Both the position numbers and the translations under genes were made by a program. Below are positions 1,076 to 14,708 of a stretch of DNA of 14,895 nt, piece by piece (positions within the stretch are counted from its first letter, which is position 1; every line of letters begins with the position of its first letter). The DNA is from Candidatus Poribacteria bacterium. GTDB taxonomy: Bacteria; Poribacteria; WGA-4E; WGA-3G. The stretch covers positions 1 through 14,895 of the forward strand of contig VXZL01000034.1 in the NCBI GenBank assembly GCA_009845505.1, written 5' to 3'. The notes beneath the pieces were generated by a model. The model saw only the letters and a program-made list of their open reading frames with translations, was not told the origin of the DNA and did not search any database.

Positions 1076-2035
1076 ATGCGAATTTTGTTAGTATGTCAGA
1101 GTAGTCTTTTTTTCACGTTTGTACTTTTAACCGATAGTGCTTTGTGCCAACCACAACCGCCCCTAACGATCGCTTTCGCCTCGGATGTGAGCGGTGACTG
1201 GGAAATCTATCTGACAGACACCGCCGGGAAGCAGCCTGTGAATCTTACACGCAACCCTGCGGCGGACTACTATCCAACGTGGGCACCTGACGGCACGCAG
1301 ATCGCATTTTTTTCACGGCGAGACGGAAATCATGAGATTTACGTGATGCAGGCTGATGGCAACGACCAGCACCGATTAACACATCACCCCGGGACGGATA
1401 AAGCACCAGCGTGGGCACCCGACGGTAAACGCCTCGCTTTCACATCAAATCGCGGCGGGCATTTCGACATCTACTTGCTTGATCTTCATAACGATGAGGT
1501 CATCCAACTTACGCAAAATGCCTTTGAAGATGAGATTCCAGCGTGGGCACCCGATGGAAACAGTCTCGCTTTCCACTCAAAGCGGGAATTCAATTGGGAT
1601 ATATACGTCGTTGATGTCCATACCGGAGTTGAACGGCGGTTGACGGATCAACCGTTGATGGACACTTATCCGGCTTGGGCACCTGACGGCACACGGATTG
1701 TATACGCCGCCATGCACCAAGAGGCAGAACTCGCCGATTTTGACTTGTATATTATGGACGCAGTGAACGGTGAAAATAAGGAAGCTTTGACCGATACACC
1801 CACAGATGAAGCCGTTCCTGCTTATGCACCTGATGGAGATACTATCGCTTTTCAATTTGAAAAAGACGGCAGGTGGGTTATCCATCTCATACGTGCTGAT
1901 GGTAGCGAACGCCGTGAATTAATTAACAACGGTGCATGGGCAACACAACCGAAATGGTATAGCGGTCCAGATGCACTATCAATAGAACCTTCAGGATTAC
2001 AAATTCAACAATGGGGCAAAATCCGAACCCCATAA
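1076..2035 (+). CDS. Secreted TolB/PD40-type beta-propeller protein with C-terminal WGKI tail
   Basis: The 319-residue product has a hydrophobic signal sequence (residues about 1-25, MRILLVCQ... to SALCQ). A run of PD40 (WD40-like) repeats follows, with A-P-D-G loops at residues 70-73, 114-117, 158-161, 202-205 and 251-254. The period is 44 residues, 49 for the last. Each repeat has the form [D/N]-x-x-I-Y-x-x-[D/Q], a [L/I]-T segment, x-P-x-[W/Y]-A-P-D-G and a [I/L]-x-[F/Y] strand, giving about six blades. Similar propellers (TolB and relatives) act as periplasmic or surface binding scaffolds. There is no peptidase or other catalytic domain. The ATG at 1076 was chosen because it opens the signal peptide; an in-frame ATG at 965 would overlap the SDR gene and translate the heptamer array. 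No clear Shine-Dalgarno sequence is seen. The last residues, QIQQWGKIRTP, match the ends of the next two proteins. Confidence 0.88.
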   Translation: MRILLVCQSSLFFTFVLLTDSALCQPQPPLTIAFASDVSGDWEIYLTDTAGKQPVNLTRNPAADYYPTWAPDGTQIAFFSRRDGNHEIYVMQADGNDQHRLTHHPGTDKAPAWAPDGKRLAFTSNRGGHFDIYLLDLHNDEVIQLTQNAFEDEIPAWAPDGNSLAFHSKREFNWDIYVVDVHTGVERRLTDQPLMDTYPAWAPDGTRIVYAAMHQEAELADFDLYIMDAVNGENKEALTDTPTDEAVPAYAPDGDTIAFQFEKDGRWVIHLIRADGSERRELINNGAWATQPKWYSGPDALSIEPSGLQIQQWGKIRTP

Positions 2036-2040
2036 CAAAA

Positions 2041-2189
2041 TGGCTGTCAGTCATCAGGGCGTTCGCTACGCTCACTGTCAGTGGTCAGTAGTCAGTTAGA
2101 GATCGTTATCGGTATTAGTAGAAATTTCTGTAAACACCACAACGCCTTACTGATTGCTGAAAGCGCAGTGCTCTGATGGCTGAGTGCTA
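2041..2189. repeat. Imperfect palindromic intergenic element 1 (GTCAG heptamer arms)
   Basis: The arms 2041-2060 and 2170-2189 are reverse complements at 15 of 20 positions. Inner arms (about 2077-2099 and 2147-2165) also pair imperfectly. The left arm contains three tandem heptamers (GTCAGTG, GTCAGTA, GTCAGTT at 2077-2097). The right end lies 21 bp before the ATG of the first CBM-like gene, just ahead of its ribosome binding site. It resembles the elements at 2866-3015 and 5336-5472. It could be a MITE-like repeat, an mRNA hairpin, or a weak terminator after the propeller gene. Confidence 0.75.
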
Positions 2190-2210
2190 CAATAAAAGGA
2201 GATACGTTTT

Positions 2211-2861
2211 ATGCGTTTCACAACTTTAGTATTAGGTATGCTCTTCATATTCGGATTACTGCTAACAAGCGGTATCAGTTACGGCTATGAGCGGGCAATT
2301 GAGGCAGAAATGGCGGATGCCATCGAAGCACCAATGATAATCGACGACGATGCCGATGCTTCAGGGGGCCAGTTTATATGGATGGAAGGACCTCCATTGG
2401 CTGGTGGCGGTGGTGAAGGTTGGGCAGAATACATCCTGCCTATCCCAGAAGCCGGCACTTACGCACTCTGGGGCAAGGTCATCGCATGGGACGGTAACAG
2501 TGATTCCTTCTGGGTCACGTGGCAACCCGCCGATCCAGACGAAAACGCTCAAGAGACTCAAAACACTGAGTTCCGCTGGGGTGTTGGCCAAGGTGAAGAA
2601 TGGCACTGGGACCGTATTAACCACTGGTTAGACGGCGGAACATTTGAACGGGAATGGGAATTGGAGGCAGGCGAAACAACACTCCGTATCGCAGTTCGGG
2701 AAGATGCGACAATGTTGGATGTAATTTTCATCACCGACAATCTTTCTGAAGATGAAGCGGAAGCAGGTCCCCGCGACCCGATTCCATCAGATTCCTTAGT
2801 CCCGGTTGAACCGCAAGATAAACTCACTACAACCTGGGGTAAACTCAAAGCAGCAAGATAG
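2211..2861 (+). CDS. Secreted CBM6/35-like jelly-roll protein, paralogue 1
   Basis: The 216-residue protein has a signal peptide (residues about 1-25) and one beta-sandwich domain of the CBM6/CBM35 kind. Visible elements are an opening EAEMA (32-36), W-M-E-G (57-60), a glycine run (GGGG, 65-68), P-E-A-G-T-Y-A-L-W-G (79-88), DGNSDSFWV (94-102), WHWDRINHW (131-139) and the closing REDATMLDVIFIT (163-175). In this fold the Trp/Asp-rich loops usually bind sugars, but the ligand here is unknown and no enzyme domain is attached. An acidic, proline-rich linker leads to the C-terminal KLTTTWGKLKAAR. A strong ribosome binding site, AAGGAGA (2196-2202), lies 8 bp before the ATG. It is a tandem duplicate of the following gene, probably co-transcribed. 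A stand-alone surface or periplasmic binding protein is the best reading. Confidence 0.8.
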   Translation: MRFTTLVLGMLFIFGLLLTSGISYGYERAIEAEMADAIEAPMIIDDDADASGGQFIWMEGPPLAGGGGEGWAEYILPIPEAGTYALWGKVIAWDGNSDSFWVTWQPADPDENAQETQNTEFRWGVGQGEEWHWDRINHWLDGGTFEREWELEAGETTLRIAVREDATMLDVIFITDNLSEDEAEAGPRDPIPSDSLVPVEPQDKLTTTWGKLKAAR

Positions 2862-2865
2862 GTAA

Positions 2866-3015
2866 TAGCAGTCAGGGCGTTCCGTTCCACTTCACTCTCA
2901 GCGATCAGCGGTCAGTAACTCGTTTGTGGCAATAATTGAACGTTTGTCATACCCACAACATCCTGCTGACTGCTGAGAGAGTTGTGTAGCAACGCGCCCT
3001 GACCGCTGACTACTA
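2866..3015. repeat. Imperfect palindromic intergenic element 2
   Basis: The left arm (about 2866-2930) and right arm (about 2951-3015) are long, gapped inverted repeats. Both begin ATAG[C/T]AGTCAG when read from the outside, and they share AGGGCG, CTCTCAGC and GTCAG segments. Period-7 GTCAG-type units are visible in both arms. The right end lies 21 bp before the ATG of the second CBM-like gene, which is the same distance as element 1 from the first. It could be a repeat insertion or part of the duplicated unit. Confidence 0.75.
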
Positions 3016-3036
3016 TACAAAGAAAGGAGGTTTGCG

Positions 3037-3711
3037 ATGAGACACAGTATAATTTTCATGCTGGTTATATTAACAACATTCTTATATGGAACAGCAAGAC
3101 TTGGCGCAGAGGTTGAGATTGCTCTCGAAGCGGAACTCGCAAATGAGATGGTAGAACCTATGATTATTGCAGAGGATAAACTTGCCTCTGATGGGAAATT
3201 TATCTGGATGGAAGGCGCACCGGTAGCCGGTGGCGGTGGCACAGGTCATGCTGATTTTATCATTAATATTCCGGAACCGGGGGACTATGCTCTCTGGGGG
3301 CATGTCATCGCATGGGATGGCAACAGTGATTCCTTTTGGGTAACATGGCAACCCGCCGATCCAGACGAAGATGCCCAACAGACACAGAATACAGAGTTTC
3401 GGTGGGGCGTTGGTCAAGGTGCCGCGTGGCACTGGGACCGTATCAACCACTGGTTAGATGGCGGAACATTTGATCGAGAGTGGGAATTCGACAAAAAGGG
3501 TGAGACGCTTTTACGGATCGCTGTCCGGGAAGACGCTACGATGATCGATGCAATCTTCGTGACAACTAACGTGAAAGCGACAGCCCCAGATCAAGCGAAC
3601 GTTCGGCTCCCAAACGATAGAGACCGGAAGATACAAGTTGAGGGGCTTGCTGTAAGTGCAAAAGGCAAAGCCGCGACCACCTGGGGGACCCTAAAACGGG
3701 CGTATCAATAA
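3037..3711 (+). CDS. Secreted CBM6/35-like jelly-roll protein, paralogue 2
   Basis: The 224-residue product is built like the preceding gene: signal peptide (about residues 1-24, ending LGA), EAELA, W-M-E-G (57-60), GGGG, DGNSDSFWV (94-102), WHWDRINHW (131-139) and REDATMIDAIFVT (164-176). Residues 91-150 of the two paralogues differ at only 5 of 60 positions, while signal peptides and linkers differ strongly. The linker here is basic/polar rather than acidic, yet the C-terminus again ends in KAATTWGTLKRAYQ. An excellent ribosome binding site, AAAGGAGG (3023-3030), lies 6 bp before the ATG. The ligand is unknown. The last 146 bp overlap, on the opposite strand, the end of a small convergent gene. 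Confidence 0.8.
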   Translation: MRHSIIFMLVILTTFLYGTARLGAEVEIALEAELANEMVEPMIIAEDKLASDGKFIWMEGAPVAGGGGTGHADFIINIPEPGDYALWGHVIAWDGNSDSFWVTWQPADPDEDAQQTQNTEFRWGVGQGAAWHWDRINHWLDGGTFDREWEFDKKGETLLRIAVREDATMIDAIFVTTNVKATAPDQANVRLPNDRDRKIQVEGLAVSAKGKAATTWGTLKRAYQ

Positions 3712-4166: not shown

Positions 4167-4207
4167 AATAGGAACGATTAAAAATTGACTTGGAGCGTGA
4201 TAAAAAG

Positions 4208-5335
4208 ATGACTGTTATGCGTTCTAACGGAGAAACCCCTCAAGCAACAGATACACCTGATTGTACAACCGACCTCAGTGTTGAGGACGTTAAGCAAGAG
4301 TTATACAAGCGACACCATCCGAGTTTAACGTTTCTCGATATAGAGGCGCATGCCAAGACCATCCACAGAATACGCACATTAAAGCAGAAGCACGACGTTG
4401 TGATGCTCGGTCACAACTATATGGAACCGCTCGTCTTCGGATTGTCCGAAAAAGAGGAACAGGGCGATTCACTCGGCTTGAGTATGTACGCAGCAAAAAC
4501 GGAAGCACCTTATTTAGTCTTCAACGGTGTACCGTTTATGGCAGAAACAGCGAAAATCTTAAGCCCCGACAAGACGGTGTTAGTTGCAGATAAAACAGCA
4601 GGATGCTCACTCGCCGATAACTTCGGTGCGGAAGATGTCAGGGAGTTGAAAAACCTCTATCCCGGTGCACCAGTGATGATCTATGTGAACAGTTACGCCG
4701 ATGCGAAAGCGGAATCGGATATCTGTTGTACATCGGCAAACGCAGCACACATCGCAAAAACGTTACCCGGGGACACAGTAATTTTTGTGCCGGACATCTT
4801 TTTCGCGCAAAATTTAGAGGAAGAGTTGAAAGACGAGAAAAAGGTTGTCTATCCGGGTAAAGATAATACTGCGCGCGGCGCAGTCTGTGAAGTTCATGAA
4901 AGATTCACACTCACCGACCTTCTAAGTATCCGCGAATCCTTTGAAATTCCGAAAGGACATCCCAGTCGCAAACTCTATGCACACTGGGAATGCCGCCCGA
5001 ATGTTTTACAAGAAGCGGATTTTTACGGCAGTACAAGTCAGATTATGAAGGACATTGCGGCGCGTGTGGCAGCGAATCAGTTGGAACGTGCTTTTGTCGC
5101 CTCGGAGTGTGAATTAACCTCGAACCTGGCACAAGAGTTCCCAGCCGTCCAATTCTGGACAGCCTGTTCCGTCCGATGTTCACACATGGCAAAGGTGAGT
5201 TTGGGCAAGATTGCAAATATTCTGGAAGCGATTGATCAGAGCGATGACCTCAGCGAATATGAGGTTACACTCAGCTCTGAAGTTATCGACAAAGCCCGCG
5301 CACCGATTGAGCGAATGCTTGAAGCGAGTGTTTAA
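4208..5335 (+). CDS. nadA: Quinolinate synthase (NadA)
   Basis: NadA condenses iminoaspartate with dihydroxyacetone phosphate to quinolinate in de novo NAD synthesis, using a [4Fe-4S] cluster held by three cysteines. The 375-residue product shows the family hallmarks: a GHNY segment (68-71), GDSLGLS (86-92), GVPFMAETAKIL (107-118), AGCSLAD (131-137), YVNSYADAKAESDICCTSANA (159-179), CEVHERF (227-233), HWEC (259-262), GSTSQI (274-279) and a C-terminal APIERML. Likely cluster ligands are Cys133, Cys262 and Cys320 or Cys324 in C-S-V-R-C. The ATG at 4208 was preferred to the in-frame TTG at 4190 because GGAG (4192-4195) precedes it, although the 12-bp spacing is long. No nadB or nadC is adjacent. 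The gene stands alone with its own promoter and ends in TAA-TAG against a palindrome. Confidence 0.95.
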   Translation: MTVMRSNGETPQATDTPDCTTDLSVEDVKQELYKRHHPSLTFLDIEAHAKTIHRIRTLKQKHDVVMLGHNYMEPLVFGLSEKEEQGDSLGLSMYAAKTEAPYLVFNGVPFMAETAKILSPDKTVLVADKTAGCSLADNFGAEDVRELKNLYPGAPVMIYVNSYADAKAESDICCTSANAAHIAKTLPGDTVIFVPDIFFAQNLEEELKDEKKVVYPGKDNTARGAVCEVHERFTLTDLLSIRESFEIPKGHPSRKLYAHWECRPNVLQEADFYGSTSQIMKDIAARVAANQLERAFVASECELTSNLAQEFPAVQFWTACSVRCSHMAKVSLGKIANILEAIDQSDDLSEYEVTLSSEVIDKARAPIERMLEASV

Positions 5336-5472: not shown

Positions 5473-6465
5473 CTAAAACCTTGTAATAAAAGAGACGCGA
5501 TGTGCATTACCGAGATAAGCGTCTGGTACGAAAGCGTAGTCGAATTGAAAATCAATATTCGCTAAGGCATCCTCACCGCTGCGTCGGACACCAACGCCGA
5601 GTGACAACCCGTCACTCGGATTTTCGTTTAAGCCCATACGGTAGCCGATACGCGCCGCCACACTGCCATAGAACCAGCGTTCTGCCCCAACGTGAAAACT
5701 TGGGTTTGCATCAATGAGTGGGAGGTGTGCATCGGCAACGAGAGCCCATATTTCACGTTCAGGCATCGATTCCTCCGACTCCTGCCAAGCTCTATAAGCC
5801 AGACCTGCACGGAGTGCCATCGGCAAATTCTCCGCTCCATCTAAGACCCCAGCATTTTGGACAGCAACGCCGATACCAAGATGATTGTCAAGGAGCCGCA
5901 GAATTAAACCGACATCAGCGGCAGCACCGTAGGCGTTTTGAATATCCAGTTGCTCTGAAATTATCTTCGCCGTACCACCGATAGATATGGCTGTACCAAG
6001 CGGATAAGCGACAGATAAACCTGTAGCGAATCCACCGACAGTTACCGTGCTATCTGGGTCTTCCGTTGGTCCTTGTCGACGCTCAATTTCCGTGAAACTG
6101 CCGAGGAAACTTGCACCCCAGACGAATCCGTTGACCCGTTGTGCGTACCCGATAGACTGATTGTTAATATCAGCGAACGAAAAGTGCTGCATTGCCGTCA
6201 ATTCTTGGTCATGAACGGCGGTTAAGCCTGCAGGATTCCAAAAGATGGTATTAACATCGTTCGCAAGTCCTGCAAATGCCCCACCCATCCCGACAGGACG
6301 ACTCCCGCCTTCAATCTTGAGGAAAGCGGCACCTACAGTCCCGGCTCCGTCGTGGATATTAACTGCGCTGGCAGTTGAGACACCTGCGGTTATTATGAGA
6401 AGCACCATTACATTGTACCGCCAAGCCCACACGCGGCTTGCGAAAACGGCTCCCCTTTTCTCCAT
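5473..6465 (-). CDS. PorV/PorQ-family outer-membrane beta-barrel protein
   Basis: The 330-residue protein has a signal sequence (hydrophobic 19-33, ending STASA). The N-terminal hallmark of the PorV/PorQ (UPF0164) family follows: GTVGAAFLKI (42-51), GGSRPVGMGGAFAGLANDVN (53-72) and FWNPAGL (75-81). The rest is alternating amphipathic strands with GxG turns, and the chain ends in HRVSFITRF with a terminal Phe, as expected for a BAM-inserted barrel. In Bacteroidota, PorV is the outer-membrane shuttle of type IX secretion that receives cargo C-terminal domains; other members are general outer-membrane proteins. A ribosome binding site, AAAGGAGAA (6480-6472), precedes the ATG. It lies 77 bp downstream of the giant surface-protein gene and is probably co-transcribed with it, which suggests a dedicated export or anchoring partner. 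The T9SS role is inferred from family and context. Confidence 0.85.
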   Translation of the reverse strand: MEKRGAVFASRVWAWRYNVMVLLIITAGVSTASAVNIHDGAGTVGAAFLKIEGGSRPVGMGGAFAGLANDVNTIFWNPAGLTAVHDQELTAMQHFSFADINNQSIGYAQRVNGFVWGASFLGSFTEIERRQGPTEDPDSTVTVGGFATGLSVAYPLGTAISIGGTAKIISEQLDIQNAYGAAADVGLILRLLDNHLGIGVAVQNAGVLDGAENLPMALRAGLAYRAWQESEESMPEREIWALVADAHLPLIDANPSFHVGAERWFYGSVAARIGYRMGLNENPSDGLSLGVGVRRSGEDALANIDFQFDYAFVPDAYLGNAHRVSFITRF

Positions 6466-6542: not shown

Positions 6543-9500
6543 CTATTCCACAACAAGCACTTTGCCGACAGCGTTTGCGCTATTTCCAGCTGCGTTGATC
6601 GCTTCTAACCGGAAGATATAGAGCCCTCGTGCGACTTGGTTCCCCGCCTGGTTCTCCAAATTCCATTTCACCAATTGGTCGTTCCGTTGCCCTGATACAA
6701 CATCCGGATAGGTCTGCGAGAGGATCATATCCCCACTCCAATCATAGATACTCAAGGTAAGTTCAACAGTCTCTCCGAGTGGTACGTTAACATCAAAGGA
6801 AAAGAATGCGACATCACCTCTGGAGATCCTGAGTGGATTTGGCCATCCAAACGTCGGTTCTCGGAATGTCAGAGATACCGACATGGTATATTCTCCGATG
6901 TCGTAAACCTCGTAATTGCCTGCATTGTCAGTAACGCGAACATCCAAGTCATATTCACCAGAGCGTGTTGGTAGGAAATCAATAGACCAGATGCTCCACG
7001 GCTCCTGTTCAGCGTTGCTATCATCAACAGCAGGGACCGGGTCAATGGGTTGATTATCGGGACCAATCCCGACGATTTCAACAAGCCAGACCCCAGATGC
7101 TGGAACAGAGATTTCGCTATCCCCGACGCGTTGTGTGCCGGTTGGGTCAGAGGCTGTCCCTTCCAAAGGCAGTGCTGCATCGGTGAGTTCAGTCTCACCG
7201 CCATCACTTGTTACAGCAGCAGTAGGCACCGTCGTTTCATAAAGAAATTCCGTTGTAATAGAATCGGTGGGTGCGAATCCGAGGAGTTCAGAGTCGTTTC
7301 CGACACTAATAACTGTAATTTGATAAATCCCTTGGGCTGTTAAACCATCGGATTTGAAGAGGAGCGTATCAATACCATTTTGTTGTGTGTTTCCCGAAAG
7401 TTCAGCACCATCAGGTCCCCTGACGACAATTCTTGACTGAGCGAGGTTAACACCTAAGCCCGTGTCAAACATGTTCGCTTGTATGACGACCCCACCCGTC
7501 GTAGAAACGGCTGTCGGATAATCTATTGCATCAATATCAACGAGGAGTGGCGCATCATTGAGAAGCAAGGCACCTGCATCAATCATCGGTGGGCTGGTGT
7601 CGTAGGTAAAGACTTTTTCATAAGACACATCCCCGTTCCCTGCCTGATCTTTGGGGGTAACCGTCACTCGGTATTCACCATCAGCCGACCCGTTGTCTGC
7701 GAGGGGCACAGCAAGTACGAAACGGAGCGTGGCTTGGTTGTCATCCTCAACGCGTCCGTCAATTTTGGTTGGGTTGGGTGAAACGCGTTCAAGAACGAGC
7801 CACTCTTCATCAACGTTTTCCCAATCAATTCCCGACTGTTCGTCGGTAGGGTTAACCTGAATCTCCGTCAAGGAGTTATTCTCGCCAGGAGAGGCAACAA
7901 GGAGGCTAATCGCTTCAGGCTCAACTTCGGGAACTTCTGTATCATGAGTGAAGGTGAGGAACTGAACATCCCCAATTCGTCCAGATCCACTGATGGGTGT
8001 AAACTCGATGGTATAGATCCCGTCGTCAGACCCGTCTACAGCGAGTGGACGGACGAGGTTATAAATCAACCGGTCAGTCTCACGGACTTGTTGTCCAGCA
8101 ACGACTTGATTTGAAGCATTCAGCAATCGAAGCGTCGAGAGATGGTTCTCATCATCATTTTCAATTGTCACTTCTATACGATCAATTTCTTCGTTGCTAA
8201 ACGCCTCATCCGATGGTGCTGTTGTTGGCGATGTTGAAACAAGCGTGGGCAAACGCCTCGAAAGTTGGAAACTGCGCTCAAAGACGGTCGCGCTTCCGTT
8301 ACCCGCCCGGTCAACGGCTTGTACGCGAATGATGTAGCGTCCATCCTCAATGAGTTGATTGGTATTCAGCGTTAACTGTGTTGCTGCGTTACTAACAAGT
8401 TCACCCGATATTTGTGCGCCATTCGGGTCAATTAGCGTCAACGTAGTCGCTGCCCAGTCTATATCACTCCCACCCTCATCGTTAAGGGTTATCAGTATCT
8501 GTGTACGATCCTCGGTAACGAGAGCACCATCTGCGGGGACAGTACTCACCAAGGTCGGTGCTTGCGTATCGTAGACAATGAGATGTTCAATGCTGAACGT
8601 ATTCCCGGATTTATCCGCTAACTCAACACGGACGGTATACTCTCCATCCATACTCCCATTACGGGACAAGGGTTCATCGAGCGTGAGATAGATCTCGCTG
8701 CTGGTATCATTCGTGAGTTGCGCCGGTACTGGGTTTCCACTCGCATCAAGCAGGCTAACTTTCTGCTCCGACAATTCGAGATCCGCGGGACCAACATCTT
8801 CGACGCTGAAGTGAAACTGTGTTAAGTTGTCGCTGATATATGAGACAGGCTGACTTAAGTCAACAGGATCCGCAAAAGTTATCTGCGGTTCCTGGGTATC
8901 ATAGACAAACTCACGATAGACGGTGTTTCCCTGCCTTCCAGCCTTGTCAATGGGTACGACAAACACGCTGTATCTTCCATCCGTGCTTCCGTCAGAGGTA
9001 AAGGCTGCGGGTTCCCAACCAATCAAACTCTCACCATCAGAACCGAGAAGTCCCGGAACAAGTGCGCCATCTGGAGTTTGCACTTGGATGAGTGAACCCT
9101 GACTACCGAAATCTAATCCCGTTTCCGTTGGATCGAGGAGCGCAGCAATTATAGCCATATTGCTGGCATTGACATAAGCGACCCCTTCCTCCTGCCCACC
9201 TATAATAACCCTATCAATACTCGGCAACGGTATATCAATGATGAATTCATAATTCGCTGCACCCGATGCCGTATTACCGGCTATATCCTGAGGGGTCACA
9301 GACAAGGTGTATGAACCAATTTGCGTCAATTCTAAGAAATCCACAACAACCTTAGAAATACCATCATCTTCTAACGTGAGTAGAATTGCTGCTTCATCAG
9401 GACCGATCAACTCAATCACCGTATTCGAGAAATCAACTTCCGTCAACTCTTCAAACGCAAGCGTGATACTACTAATAGACGCCAAAAACTCAGTCGTTCG

Positions 9501-12500
9501 ATCTGGCACAAGTGCCACCGGCGGATCGGTATTTACCAGAACCGAGGTTAAACGAGGGGCCTTGGAATCATAAACAAATACGTACGCCGAATCTAAACGA
9601 TTCTGTGCTTTGTCAACAAGCGACACTTGTACGGTATACTGACCATCCGCGCTCCCATCCCGAAGGAATGAAGCCGCAAGTGTTAGATAGAGTTCACCCG
9701 CTAACGCATCAAACGTCAGGGTTGTCGGCACAACCGCACCTGAAGCATCCACCAATGCAATCGCTTGGTCCTCAAAAAACAGATCCGCGGGACCCCTATC
9801 TTCAACAGTAAACACAAATTGCCTGAAATCGCCACGGATATAAGAGACAGGGTCACTCAATATTAGCGGAGAGGCTGCCGTTATCCGAGGCTTCTCCGTG
9901 TCATAGATAAATTGACGATAGACCACATCCCCCCGTCTTCCTGCCTTATCAACGGATGTAATTTCTACTGTATACTGTCCATCAGCACTACCGTCTGTCG
10001 GGAGAGATAACGGTTGCCATGTCAACTGGTCAACGCCATTGGACGACATCCGACCCGGCACAACCGCACCTGAAGCACTCGTCACAAGGATACTTGAGCC
10101 TTCACTCCCCAAAGCCAATCCAGTTTCAGTCGGGTCAAGGAATCTAACACTTATTACCACCTTGCCGGCATTGACGTACGCAATGTCGTCCTCTTGTTCA
10201 GCAATAACCACCCTATCAACGCTCGGCGGCGGTATATCCAGAATAAACTCATAACTCGTTGCACCCGATGCCGCATTACCGGCTATATCCTGAGGGGTCA
10301 CAGACAAGGTGTATGAACCAATTTGCGTCAATTCTAAGAAATCCACAACAACCTTAGAAATACCATCATCTTCTAACGTGAGTAGAATTGCTGCTTCATC
10401 AGGACCGATCAACTCAATCACCGTATTCGAGAAATCAACTTCCGTCAACTCTTCAAACGCAAGCGTGATACTACTAATAGACGCCAAAAACTCAGTCGTT
10501 CGATCTGGCACAAGTGCCACCGGCGGATCGGTATTTACCAGAACCGAGGTTAAACGAGGGGCCTTGGAATCATAAACAAATACGTACGCCGAATCTAAAC
10601 GATTCTGTGCCTTGTCAACAAGCGACACTTGTACGGTATACTGACCATCCGCGCTCCCATCCCGCGGGAACGAAGCTGCAGGCGTTAGATAGAGCTGATT
10701 CGTTAATTCATCAAATGTCAGTGTTGTTGGGACAGCATTACCTGCAACATCCGTCAACGTAATCACTTGATCCGCAAAAAACAGATCTGCGGGCCCCACA
10801 TCTTCAACCGTGAACACAAACTGTCTGAAATCACCAGGGATATAAGAAACCGACTCACTTAATACCAACGGAGACCCGCTGGTTATCCGAGGGGTTTCTG
10901 TATCATAGATAAATTGACGATAGACCACATCGCCTCGTCTCCCTGCCTTATCAACGGGTGTAATTTCTACCGTATATTGCCCATCAGCACTACCGTCTGT
11001 TGGGAGAGATAACGGTTGCCATGTCAACTGGTCAACGCCATTGGACGACATCCGACCCGGCACAACCGCACCTGAAGCACTCGTCACAAGGATACTTGAG
11101 CCTTCACTCCCCAAAGCCAATCCAGTTTCAGTCGGGTCAAGGAATCTAACACTTATTACCACCTTGCCGGCATTGACGTACGCAATGTCGTCCTCTTGTT
11201 CAGCAATAACCACCCTATCAACGCTCGGCGGCGGTATATCCAGAATAAACTCATAACTCGTTGCACCCGATGCCGCATTACCGGCTATATCCTGAGGGGT
11301 CACAGACAAGGTGTATGAACCAATTTGCGTCAATTCCAAGAAATCCACAACAACCTCAGAAATACCATCGTCTTCTAAAGTGAGTAGAATTGCCGATCCA
11401 TCAGGCGCCACTAACTGAATCATAGTATTGGCAAAATCAACACGGGTCGCATCTTCAAATTTAAGAGTCATACGACTTATAGGCTCTAAGATCTCGGTAA
11501 CCTGCTGCGGCAGCAGTTCCATCGGCGAAGCCGTACTGGCGATAACGGAAGATAAGTGCGGCACCTGCGAATCATAAACTAACTTATGCGCCGCCTCCAG
11601 ACGATTTTCCGATTTGTCAACAAGGGAAAACGTTATTTGATACGCTCCGTCTGCACTACCATCCCGCCGAAAGGGTTCAGCAAATGTAAAATAGAGTTGA
11701 CTGTTTAACTCATCGATGGTGAGTGTCCCCGCGACAGGTGCTTCGTTAGCATCAAAGAATTCCACGGCTTGATCTTCTAATTCTAAACCCGCGGGTCCTA
11801 CATCTTCGAGGGTGAATTGGAATTGTGAGAAGACACCACCAACATAGGTGACAGGCTGGTTCAATTCGAGCGGTGTCGCAGCAGTAATACGCGGGGTCTG
11901 TGTGTCGAAAACGAACTGTCGATAGACCACCTCGCCCTGCCTACCCGTTGCATCAACAGGCGTAACAGCAACTGTGTAACGTCCATCTGCACTTCCATCA
12001 GTTGGGAGGACGACGGGAACCCACGTTAACTGATTTGTTCCATTGGATGTAGTGATACCCGGTGCCGGAATCCCGGTAGGGTTGGTGACAGTGATAGTTG
12101 AACCGTCCTCACCTAAATCTAATCCAACACCTGTTGGATCCGAGAAGGTAGCCACTATCTGAGAAGCAGTTTCGTTAACGTAAACAATTCCCTCAACATT
12201 TCCATCAATTAAAACGGAACTGACAATAGGCAAAGCGAGATCAATCTGAAACCTATAAACAAAGGGTGCTGTGCTCTGATTGCCCGTCAGGTCTTGGGGT
12301 GTAATTGAGAGAAGATACTCACCGGGCTGCGTCAAGGCTCCAAAATTAAGCGTTAAAGTGGTTTTTCCATCATCAAAACGGTTGATAGGTATATTTCCGC
12401 CAGTTGGATCCGCAAGCGTGACACTTGTATTCTCAAAGTCAACATCGCTGTCGGAACCGAGTAAATTTAGCGATGTGCCGCCGGATGTGGCATCGAAAGT

Positions 12501-14708
12501 TACGATGATTTGTGAGAAACTTGTATCAATGCTTGTCGTCCCACGCGTAGAAAGTAATAATCCGGATTCGGTTGCGACCGCCACACTTTCAATTGCCGGA
12601 AATTGTGTATCTAAAAAGACCGAAAATTCCTGTATGTAACGCTCGCCTTTAAAATCAACAAACGTTGCAGCTATAGTGTATTCGCCATCAGCACTGCCAC
12701 TGCGAGGCACTACAACATCGGTGCTCCAAGTCAAGCGGTTATTTACGGGATCAGTTTCAATTCTTCGTTCTGGAATAACAACGCCCTGCGGGTTTGTGAC
12801 CGTGACAGTTGAGGCGTTGAAATCAATGCCTGAACCGATATAATCAATAAGTTCGACAACGATCATGGGCAAACTATTGACAGTGGTTGCCTCAGGCATC
12901 GTTAATTGTACTTCGGTCCGGCTTTGACTCACGAGATAGAATTCATGGCGAGCCGTCGCACTGACGTTGCCAGCACGGTCGGTCGGTGTAATTTCTATTG
13001 CGTAGGTCCCGTCATCAGAACCGTCCAAGGCAACGGATTCTAACACCGTTAGTGTGGCAGTATCCCTACCATTATTTGTAATATTAACAGGAACCTCTAT
13101 TTGTGTTCCGCCGACATCGTGTGTCAGTCGGAAACTGCTCTGAATGAAATCAATACCACTGGTTACTTCATTCAGGACCACCTGGACCTGTGACAAATCG
13201 CTGACGGTTTCATTCGCTGCGGGGACAGTAGATACAAGGGTTGGCAGCTCGGTATCATAGAGGAGTAGAAAGGTCTCGCTGTCCGAGTTGCCGAGTGTAT
13301 CGGCGAATTGTACATCAAGCCTGTAACTCCCATCCTGATTCACAAGCGGTTCATCCAAAACGTAGGTAATCTGGGTATTCGTTCTATCTACAAAGGTACG
13401 ACCCGCGAGTCGCTCAGTCGTATTTCCATTGCGGATAGCACTAAACTGGATCCGCGTGCCCTGCTCAAAATCGACACCGACCCCAGCATTGCCGTCGCTA
13501 AAAGCGGCAACAATCTGTGTAAGGGGCTGATTGTGGTAAATGGTATCGCCAATTTGGCTAAAGGATCCGCCTCCCTGTGTTGGACTTAAAGAGGTGAGTT
13601 GCGGTGGAAGGTTATCATAAACAAAAGGGACACGAACAGCACTGCTTTGATTACCGGCATTATCAATACCAACAACTTCAACGGTATATTCTCCATCGCG
13701 AAGACCGTCTTTGGGGGATAGCGGTGCCAAAAGTACCCATCGAATTCTATTTCTTCCCGGAAATGTCTGCCGCCCTAAAATCTCACCCTCCGGTCCGGTG
13801 AGCCGAATCGTTGAACCAGAGAGGTTAACACCGTTTTCAAAATTGTCTGCGAGTGTCGCTTCAACAAAATCTAACTGACGGCTGACGCCACTCCCTGGAG
13901 CGATAGTTCCTGTGTTGCCAGCAACGCTCACTAAATTGGGAGCCACATTATCAAAGGTGAATTCCGTTGTCTCTTGAACAAGATTACCGGCTTTATCAAC
14001 AAGTGTGATTGTTAGTGTATAACTTCCATTTTCGGAACGTATGTCTAAAGGGTTCCCTAAACTAAAACTCAGCTGTGTTGTATAATTGAGGTACCCCCTA
14101 CGTACAACACCGCGTGCATTTTTTAAGACGACATTCGTCCGCTGCGCGGCGAAATCAATCGCGCTCCCTTCATCTACGTCCGGTATTACAGTTATGTTCC
14201 GTAAGGGGACATTGATAAGAATGCCATTGGTAAGCAACAGATTTGGATCGTCATTGGCAAATACGCTGGAAATGCGAGGCGGTCTGGTATCTAAAATAGC
14301 CTCAGCGGTTCTTTCCAATACTTCGCCCGGTGCGGCTTCCTTATCAAGAACAACGCTAATTGTATAAGTTCCGTCGGCTAACTGTACATCGTTAGTACGT
14401 CCATCCCAACTGATACGGGCTGACTGTCTCGGGAAGATAGTCCCCCGCCGAATAAGATGTTGATTTGCCCGAACAGTATAAGAATCGCCCTCTATGGCAG
14501 TTTCATCATCAACGGAAAAAATAATATTTAAACGTTCCTTCTCTCCTCTAAAAATCGAATCACCGTTTGCATCAAGTGATAAACTCGTGAGACCTGCCCA
14601 GACATCAGCAGGCACCAACAGAACTGCAAGACAGACGACAAAAACCTGACTTATGATAGCAAGTTTCGGCTTGCAAGCAACGCCGCATATATTTTTAATT
14701 TTTGGCAC
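6543..14708 (-). CDS. Giant secreted Ig-like repeat surface protein with FlgD/T9SS-like C-terminal domain
   Basis: The 2721-residue product starts at GTG (14708) with AGGGAG 6 bp upstream; no in-frame ATG lies nearby. A signal peptide covers residues 1-38 (hydrophobic 16-33, ending DVWA). A first FlgD-like domain (about 40-145, S-W-D-G ... D-G-T-Y) is followed by about 22 Ig-like domains of 100-115 residues. Most end in D-x-A-G-N followed by [F/L]-x-Y-D-T-x-x-P-x-[I/L]. Residues about 704-2054 are four copies of a three-domain super-repeat. D-G-S-x-D-G-x-Y loops recur. The last 110 residues contain W-P-N-P (2621-2624), S-I-Y-D-W-S-G, W-N-L-E-N-Q-A-G, A-R-G-L-Y-I-F-R-L and a final GKVLVVE, as in FlgD-Ig or type IX secretion C-terminal domains. 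The only cysteines are in the signal peptide. The likely role is adhesin or surface stalk, exported with the PorV-like protein encoded just downstream. Ligand unknown. Confidence 0.9.
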   Translation of the reverse strand: MPKIKNICGVACKPKLAIISQVFVVCLAVLLVPADVWAGLTSLSLDANGDSIFRGEKERLNIIFSVDDETAIEGDSYTVRANQHLIRRGTIFPRQSARISWDGRTNDVQLADGTYTISVVLDKEAAPGEVLERTAEAILDTRPPRISSVFANDDPNLLLTNGILINVPLRNITVIPDVDEGSAIDFAAQRTNVVLKNARGVVRRGYLNYTTQLSFSLGNPLDIRSENGSYTLTITLVDKAGNLVQETTEFTFDNVAPNLVSVAGNTGTIAPGSGVSRQLDFVEATLADNFENGVNLSGSTIRLTGPEGEILGRQTFPGRNRIRWVLLAPLSPKDGLRDGEYTVEVVGIDNAGNQSSAVRVPFVYDNLPPQLTSLSPTQGGGSFSQIGDTIYHNQPLTQIVAAFSDGNAGVGVDFEQGTRIQFSAIRNGNTTERLAGRTFVDRTNTQITYVLDEPLVNQDGSYRLDVQFADTLGNSDSETFLLLYDTELPTLVSTVPAANETVSDLSQVQVVLNEVTSGIDFIQSSFRLTHDVGGTQIEVPVNITNNGRDTATLTVLESVALDGSDDGTYAIEITPTDRAGNVSATARHEFYLVSQSRTEVQLTMPEATTVNSLPMIVVELIDYIGSGIDFNASTVTVTNPQGVVIPERRIETDPVNNRLTWSTDVVVPRSGSADGEYTIAATFVDFKGERYIQEFSVFLDTQFPAIESVAVATESGLLLSTRGTTSIDTSFSQIIVTFDATSGGTSLNLLGSDSDVDFENTSVTLADPTGGNIPINRFDDGKTTLTLNFGALTQPGEYLLSITPQDLTGNQSTAPFVYRFQIDLALPIVSSVLIDGNVEGIVYVNETASQIVATFSDPTGVGLDLGEDGSTITVTNPTGIPAPGITTSNGTNQLTWVPVVLPTDGSADGRYTVAVTPVDATGRQGEVVYRQFVFDTQTPRITAATPLELNQPVTYVGGVFSQFQFTLEDVGPAGLELEDQAVEFFDANEAPVAGTLTIDELNSQLYFTFAEPFRRDGSADGAYQITFSLVDKSENRLEAAHKLVYDSQVPHLSSVIASTASPMELLPQQVTEILEPISRMTLKFEDATRVDFANTMIQLVAPDGSAILLTLEDDGISEVVVDFLELTQIGSYTLSVTPQDIAGNAASGATSYEFILDIPPPSVDRVVIAEQEDDIAYVNAGKVVISVRFLDPTETGLALGSEGSSILVTSASGAVVPGRMSSNGVDQLTWQPLSLPTDGSADGQYTVEITPVDKAGRRGDVVYRQFIYDTETPRITSGSPLVLSESVSYIPGDFRQFVFTVEDVGPADLFFADQVITLTDVAGNAVPTTLTFDELTNQLYLTPAASFPRDGSADGQYTVQVSLVDKAQNRLDSAYVFVYDSKAPRLTSVLVNTDPPVALVPDRTTEFLASISSITLAFEELTEVDFSNTVIELIGPDEAAILLTLEDDGISKVVVDFLELTQIGSYTLSVTPQDIAGNAASGATSYEFILDIPPPSVDRVVIAEQEDDIAYVNAGKVVISVRFLDPTETGLALGSEGSSILVTSASGAVVPGRMSSNGVDQLTWQPLSLPTDGSADGQYTVEITSVDKAGRRGDVVYRQFIYDTEKPRITAASPLILSDPVSYIRGDFRQFVFTVEDRGPADLFFEDQAIALVDASGAVVPTTLTFDALAGELYLTLAASFLRDGSADGQYTVQVSLVDKAQNRLDSAYVFVYDSKAPRLTSVLVNTDPPVALVPDRTTEFLASISSITLAFEELTEVDFSNTVIELIGPDEAAILLTLEDDGISKVVVDFLELTQIGSYTLSVTPQDIAGNTASGAANYEFIIDIPLPSIDRVIIGGQEEGVAYVNASNMAIIAALLDPTETGLDFGSQGSLIQVQTPDGALVPGLLGSDGESLIGWEPAAFTSDGSTDGRYSVFVVPIDKAGRQGNTVYREFVYDTQEPQITFADPVDLSQPVSYISDNLTQFHFSVEDVGPADLELSEQKVSLLDASGNPVPAQLTNDTSSEIYLTLDEPLSRNGSMDGEYTVRVELADKSGNTFSIEHLIVYDTQAPTLVSTVPADGALVTEDRTQILITLNDEGGSDIDWAATTLTLIDPNGAQISGELVSNAATQLTLNTNQLIEDGRYIIRVQAVDRAGNGSATVFERSFQLSRRLPTLVSTSPTTAPSDEAFSNEEIDRIEVTIENDDENHLSTLRLLNASNQVVAGQQVRETDRLIYNLVRPLAVDGSDDGIYTIEFTPISGSGRIGDVQFLTFTHDTEVPEVEPEAISLLVASPGENNSLTEIQVNPTDEQSGIDWENVDEEWLVLERVSPNPTKIDGRVEDDNQATLRFVLAVPLADNGSADGEYRVTVTPKDQAGNGDVSYEKVFTYDTSPPMIDAGALLLNDAPLLVDIDAIDYPTAVSTTGGVVIQANMFDTGLGVNLAQSRIVVRGPDGAELSGNTQQNGIDTLLFKSDGLTAQGIYQITVISVGNDSELLGFAPTDSITTEFLYETTVPTAAVTSDGGETELTDAALPLEGTASDPTGTQRVGDSEISVPASGVWLVEIVGIGPDNQPIDPVPAVDDSNAEQEPWSIWSIDFLPTRSGEYDLDVRVTDNAGNYEVYDIGEYTMSVSLTFREPTFGWPNPLRISRGDVAFFSFDVNVPLGETVELTLSIYDWSGDMILSQTYPDVVSGQRNDQLVKWNLENQAGNQVARGLYIFRLEAINAAGNSANAVGKVLVVE
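9273..9608 (-). repeat. 336-bp tract identical to 10275-10610
   Basis: Read side by side, every base of 9273-9608 matches 10275-10610, with mismatches at 9272 and 9609. Identity then continues to 9662. The tract covers the end of one B domain and most of the following C domain. It is coding sequence of the giant gene. Confidence 0.9.
10000..10334 (-). repeat. 335-bp tract identical to 11002-11336
   Basis: Every base of 10000-10334 matches 11002-11336; mismatches flank it at 9999 and 10335. It covers the end of a C domain and most of the A domain. Bases 10275-10334 are common to both identical tracts and so are present unchanged three times in the gene. Confidence 0.9.

Follow-up and report, generated by a model that had tools for sequence, protein, structure and literature searches.

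Three secreted proteins with a common C-terminal tail

The window analysed here is a stretch of 14,895 nucleotides from a Candidatus Poribacteria bacterium (contig VXZL01000034.1, assembly GCA_009845505.1). It encodes three consecutive proteins predicted to be secreted, a PD40 beta-propeller and two paralogous jelly-roll proteins resembling carbohydrate-binding modules (CBMs), which end in a common C-terminal tail. The three genes and their tails are arranged as follows.

1076..2035, forward strand: secreted PD40 beta-propeller (PD40 E 3.9e-52); likely start at the ATG at 1076, within a longer open reading frame (ORF) from 965
1976..2032, forward strand: diverged tail of the propeller, LSIEPSGLQIQQWGKIRTP, read from the sequence; of the 31 best listed homologues, counting the window protein itself, 28 end in W-[GA]-x-[IL]-[KR], one of them with W-S
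2211..2861, forward strand: secreted CBM-like jelly-roll protein, paralogue 1, 216 amino acids (aa)
2796..2858, forward strand: tail of paralogue 1, LVPVEPQDKLTTTWGKLKAAR; tail-profile match, E 3.0e-10
3037..3711, forward strand: secreted CBM-like jelly-roll protein, paralogue 2, 224 aa; the Foldseek matches of its model, itself of low confidence, are weak and CBM35/CBM6-like
3646..3708, forward strand: tail of paralogue 2, LAVSAKGKAATTWGTLKRAYQ; tail-profile match, E 1.2e-7; predicted local distance difference test (pLDDT) of about 29-32 over residues 201-224

Several homologues of the propeller begin or continue at the same MRILL as the start at 1076. Paralogue 1 matched no family in a Pfam and NCBIfam scan at E 0.01. 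A preliminary description of this DNA had given the three proteins a shared W-G-x-[IL]-[KR] ending. The C-termini read as stated there and the common ending is real, but the true unit is a single module of about 18 residues, L-x-V-[ED]-[PA]-x-[GD]-K-L-[TA]-T-T-W-[GA]-x-[LI]-K, followed by a few free residues, and its final glycine may be replaced by alanine or serine. Over about 17 residues, the three window tails LSIEPSGLQIQQWGKIR, PVEPQDKLTTTWGKLK and AVSAKGKAATTWGTLK align without gaps.

Abundance and spread of the tail

To count the tail in the host draft genome (4.78 Mb, 86% complete), we used a strict DNA pattern encoding T-W-G-x-[ILMF]-K, with the same pattern reversed as the control. 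The pattern gave 68 matches against one for the control; the propeller tail, in its QQWGKIR form, is not caught by it. Stretches around all 66 strict matches outside the window were taken to count the distance to the stop codon, and the motif ends 1-8 residues before an in-frame stop in 65 of the 68 matches. Two of the three exceptions are internal (L013 and L037), and the third lies in a 30-aa ORF with 17 residues after the motif (L020). The consensus of the 65 tails is L-[AP]-V-[ED]-[PA]-x-[GD]-K-L-[TA]-T-T-W-G-x-[LI]-K, followed by 1-8 free residues rich in R.

A 24-position profile built from these 65 tails and searched in six frames yielded 144 matches in the host genome at E ≤1 (150 of 190 first-look candidates were scored). 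Within the stretches taken, 143 ORF matches of at least 8 bits are listed, corresponding to about 142 distinct genes, since one 39-aa entry (L159) repeats another (L024); 23 of the 166 unique matches score below 8 bits and lie outside this list. Except for two cut by contig ends, all listed profile matches have their ORF end 0-15 residues after the aligned tail. Among the profile matches, the W-G of the tail is often replaced by W-A or W-S.

The tail extends throughout the phylum. In a sample of 84 Poribacteria genomes from 21 genera and 10 families, which includes the host genome and one other of the same species, the strict motif was present in all 84, with 5293 matches compared with 188 for the control; single genomes hold 3-109 matches, with a median of 66. 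We hand-picked 20 stretches among the listed matches of four genomes (G001-G004) that belong to other orders or classes. In these stretches 22 of 24 motifs end 0-4 residues before the stop, the exceptions being one internal motif (L181) and one in a 22-aa ORF (L194). Four genomes with a low strict count hold 26-54 profile matches at E 0.1, and in 12 loci taken from these four all 20 profile matches lie 0-9 residues from the ORF end. The idea that low-copy genomes have nearly lost the tail was rejected: G009, with a strict count of 3, has 36 profile matches at E 0.1, and so no natural loss is available that could be used to find a reader of the tail.

The comparison outside Poribacteria covers one phylum, that of a Marinimicrobia relative, and four archaeal genomes, and does not imply that the tail is restricted to Poribacteria. 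The 80 genomes of that phylum were at background level, with 129 strict matches against 100 for the control, and the four archaeal genomes contained no strict match.

Carriers of the tail and selection on it

Signal peptides were called by a home-made rule in carrier ORFs that retain their own 5' end and are 200 aa or longer. By this rule 103 of 110 carriers have a signal peptide, compared with 64 of 154 non-carriers (Fisher p 5e-20); the latter are ORFs rather than verified genes, drawn from stretches of the host genome and from 52 of 64 loci around nadA, tail-bearing ORFs of the nadA loci excluded. The preliminary description had expected many proteins with signal peptides and unrelated folds to end in the motif close to the stop, and this is what the lineage contains. 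The motif is neither confined to the three window proteins nor as frequent in cytoplasmic proteins or at internal positions.

Carriers have a median length of 260 aa among the 121 ORFs scanned, and just 4 of these are lipoprotein-like. The first 54 carriers matched 21 Pfam families, including 30 Laminin_G_3, four 3keto-disac_hyd, three CBM9_1, three F5_F8_type_C, one Kelch and one LTD. The 67 further ORFs comprise 61 with a signal-peptide-like start and six manual additions (four of these truncated at the 5' end); for these, 25 of 34 Pfam families are listed, among them 31 Laminin_G_3, seven PD40, six 3keto-disac_hyd, four Kelch and three LTD. The folds are thus diverse, ranging from LamG domains to PD40 and Kelch propellers, CBMs and lamin-tail domains. 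An ORF that appears staphylococcal nuclease-like by eye (L223:7506-8126) ends in the tail variant TTTWAELKR, in a stretch that contains a short run of unknown bases.

The homologue searches yielded 519, 297 and 6537 proteins, the last number belonging to the propeller search, and the 120 best listed from each were used. The tail is kept in 117 of the 120 best listed homologues of the CBM-like proteins. Among the 120 best listed LamG homologues, 109 have W-[GA], ten have W-S, and one has further residues after the tail.

Selection acts on the protein, since synonymous positions vary almost freely and the sequence past the stop shows no conservation. All four bases occur at the third position of the fixed T and G codons of the tail, the stop codons differ among tail genes, and the tails share a median DNA identity of 0.52. 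The DNA after the stop holds 0.039 bits per site, compared with 0.033 expected from sample size. At the protein level, the tail core of the CBM-like family is conserved at 3.83 bits, a small margin over the body (3.72) and above the linker (3.42); in a second family the tail core reaches 3.42 bits, compared with 2.94 for the body and 2.97 for the linker.

Structural models place the tail outside the confident part of the fold. In a LamG model (mean pLDDT 89), the domain mostly scores 93-98, and values drop to 57-61 over the last 18 residues; a short helix is modelled at residues 250-256. In the CBM-like model, which is of low confidence overall (mean pLDDT 60), the last 24 residues, which include a helix call at 216-223, score about 29-32. 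Neither model has an extra C-terminal Ig domain. No stretch resembling a membrane helix (19-residue window, mean hydropathy at least 1.6) was found in the last 45 residues of any of the 121 scanned ORFs, and a cysteine occurs within the last 20 residues of only one. A search of the PDB with the tail profile returned just three matches, at E 0.08 or worse.

A putative sorting route and its candidate reader

Taken together, predicted Sec export and a peptide that is conserved phylum-wide by selection on the protein, is independent of the fold and appears to be exposed lead us to read the tail as very probably a sorting or targeting tag. The many exported carriers of unrelated folds in this lineage support the C-terminal tag interpretation that had been proposed for the three window proteins. 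Carriers would be exported by Sec through their signal peptide, and the tail, judging from the two models, one of them of low confidence, would stay outside the folded domain. An outer-membrane receptor would then bind K-L-x-x-T-W-G-x-[IL]-K, perhaps in the form of a short amphipathic helix that presents L, W and I/L on the same side, and the carrier would be moved to or fixed at the cell surface.

The closest comparison is the C-terminal domain of the type IX secretion system (T9SS; TIGR04183, Por_Secre_tail, FlgD_ig-like), which is likewise C-terminal and found on exported proteins of many folds. That domain is Ig-like and has about 70-80 residues, whereas the tail has about 18, lacks an Ig-like fold and shares no motif with it. 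Other tags differ in composition. PEP-CTERM and GlyGly-CTERM are carried by otherwise unrelated proteins, and PEP-CTERM has a hydrophobic stretch and a basic end. As described in the accessible parts of PMC1569441 and PMC3237569, PEP-CTERM/exosortase and GlyGly-CTERM/rhombosortase resemble the tail as short C-terminal homology regions on exported proteins; GlyGly-CTERM has a hydrophobic stretch and a basic end (accessible part of PMC6219818), and the Poribacteria tail has no such hydrophobic stretch. MYXO-CTERM/myxosortase is similar in that it marks the C-termini of dozens of proteins per genome throughout a phylum (PMC11980579, accessible part), but it combines an invariant cysteine with a transmembrane helix and an arginine-rich terminus; of the 121 scanned ORFs, none has a helix-like stretch in the last 45 residues and one has a cysteine in the last 20. 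No tail or tag model was among the Pfam and NCBIfam matches reported for the scanned carriers (Pfam for all 121 ORFs, with 25 of 34 families listed for 67 of them), and none of the seven NCBIfam families matched by the 54 carriers at E 0.01 is a curated tag model.

The window itself also encodes a protein of the T9SS-type tag class, next to a possible adaptor.

6543..14708, reverse strand: Ig-repeat surface protein, 2721 aa, with a C-terminal FlgD_ig domain, which represents the second, T9SS-type tag class (FlgD_ig 42.7 bits over the whole protein, cut-off 27)
5473..6465, reverse strand: outer-membrane protein of the PorV/PorQ family, a candidate adaptor (NF033709 119.1 bits, cut-off 90)

Taken alone, the FlgD_ig end of the 2721-aa protein (6594-6767) scores 24.2 bits, under the cut-off of 27. 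Two pairs of ORFs with identical translations (9307-9573 and 10309-10575; 10039-10254 and 11041-11256) lie on the strand opposite this gene, the members of each pair 1002 bases apart, which suggests that a segment of about 1 kb was recently repeated within it.

The tail had been proposed to be a class apart from this T9SS-like domain, and the host genome agrees. It contains 57 FlgD_ig matches, 53 of them over the cut-off with a median open frame of 744 aa, and six contigs carry both a FlgD_ig and a tail-profile match. As the nearest pair is 1436 bases apart, no FlgD_ig domain on the shared contigs ends in the tail. Neither FlgD_ig nor Por_Secre_tail is among the Pfam matches of the 54 carriers or among the 25 of 34 families listed for the 67 further ORFs. 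Two weaker tail-like ends beside C25 genes sit in separate ORFs (L223, L226).

Components of a T9SS-like outer-membrane module were found almost throughout the sample. Of the 84 Poribacteria genomes, 83 encode a SprA-like protein, which is about 2200 aa long in most cases, and all 18 genomes searched for the other two components have 12-30 PorV/PorQ-family matches and 2-5 C25 (PorU-like) matches each, counts that may include fragments. Five C25-PorV loci, picked for the closeness of both matches (G000 L223, G079 L224, G009 L225, G002 L228 and G023 L229), have a C25 protein of 1900-2100 aa with a T9SS-like end that closes in KMMKL[KR] (LLKLK in G009), followed by a PorV-like gene; no such pair was found at two other C25 loci of G000 (L226, L227). 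These loci, together with the lone SprA-like gene, suggest that Poribacteria have a T9SS-like module of divergent type. In G002, the SprA-like protein (L203:6644-13534) has a LysM domain near its N-terminus. The divergent SprA-, PorV- and PorU-like genes bear on the remark of Kamke et al. (2014), in the accessible part of their text, that their poribacterial genomes have T9SS-type domains but no structural genes.

This module (SprA-like translocon, PorV family, C25/PorU-like) is the best candidate for the reader of the tail because it is present, because T9SS reads C-termini, because HBP35 requires its last 22 residues for T9SS surface delivery (PMC3120885), and because an extension of T9SS C-termini is tolerated (accessible part of PMC11285876). 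According to the latter paper, the T9SS signals of different species can be incompatible. We propose it tentatively, as a possible rather than a probable reader, in which some PorV-like barrels would perhaps recognise the short tail and others the FlgD_ig domain. The full chain, a phylum-wide C-terminal sorting signal with the T9SS-like outer-membrane module as its reader, we hold to be somewhat short of probable.

Several results weigh against this chain. Tail counts do not follow the counts of PorV or of C25 (Spearman rho 0.02 each, 18 genomes), and the ten stretches around SprA-like genes showed no conserved neighbour; neither the neighbourhoods nor the counts tied any gene to the tail. No motif is common to the tail and the ends of FlgD_ig domains, which in the C25-PorV loci are mostly KMMKL[KR]. 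SprA-like matches exceed the curated cut-off in one of 84 genomes, and Pfam SprA_N was met in two of the three SprA-like proteins checked. A search for GldM found nothing in 18 genomes, its control being likewise silent, so that absence is not claimed.

A sorting or processing signal for a machine other than the T9SS, perhaps one specific to Poribacteria, is the strongest of the alternatives, though we consider it unlikely. The two tag classes on different proteins of one genome fit it, as does the lack of correlation with PorV or C25 numbers, and the NCBIfam matches of the 54 carriers and the three window proteins include no curated C-terminal tag model. The presence of the T9SS-like module and the precedent for short T9SS signals speak for a T9SS-like reader instead. 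The tail might also be a docking peptide, a smaller counterpart of dockerins: the carriers would be secreted by another route, and the tail, uncleaved, would bind a glycan, a scaffold or a polymer of the envelope. The carriers are mostly binding folds (LamG, CBM, propellers) and the tail resembles an exposed peptide in the models, but lamin-tail proteins and the nuclease-like ORF carry it as well, and no scaffold was found, no search for one having been made; we regard docking as improbable.

Far less probable still is a structural role, with the tail acting as a clasp on the domain, or simple inheritance of the tail from one common ancestor of all carriers. LamG proteins do account for 61 of the 121 scanned ORFs and may be paralogues, but the same module sits on propellers, CBMs and lamin-tail proteins, is more conserved than the body in two families, and is modelled at low confidence. 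A mobile DNA repeat inserted at gene ends would explain many copies at a near-fixed place by the stop, but it is refuted by the free third codon positions, the near-background signal after the stop and the low DNA identity between tails, unless the insertions are very old.

Returning to the sorting-tag reading, the exported proteome may be split by two C-terminal labels: an Ig-like domain of T9SS type on mostly larger proteins, and an 18-residue peptide free of membrane helix and Ig domain on about 140 mostly small binding proteins, with a dedicated receptor, maybe one of the many expanded PorV-like barrels. To us this split is close to, yet not quite, an even proposition. If true, the split would add a third kind of outer-membrane export signal to the type A and type B domains of the T9SS. 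C-terminal tags as such are a known kind, and what appears new here is one that is so short, phylum-wide, and without a membrane helix, a conserved cysteine or an Ig domain. Literature searches, mostly at the level of listings and the start of abstracts, returned no description of the tail, and its sorting route appears to be previously undescribed. The tag gives a sequence-based list of the likely sorted or surface proteome and points to a sorting route and a minimal testable peptide. Poribacteria are abundant sponge symbionts, and their many LamG, propeller and CBM proteins may touch the host.

Downstream of the two jelly-roll genes, the window encodes NadA (4190-5335). The CBM-like motif AWDGNSDSF occurs in 43 of the 64 nadA loci (L054-L117, 7 of the 64 not from Poribacteria), and the CBM-like family therefore often adjoins nadA. 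The window NadA is 96% identical to NadA of two Poribacteria metagenome-assembled genomes (MAGs). Its closest matches outside Poribacteria in the scan are Euryarchaeota MAGs at 64-69% identity, one of them labelled Marine Group III, and Marinimicrobia at 61-62%, which may hint at transfer of the nadA gene.

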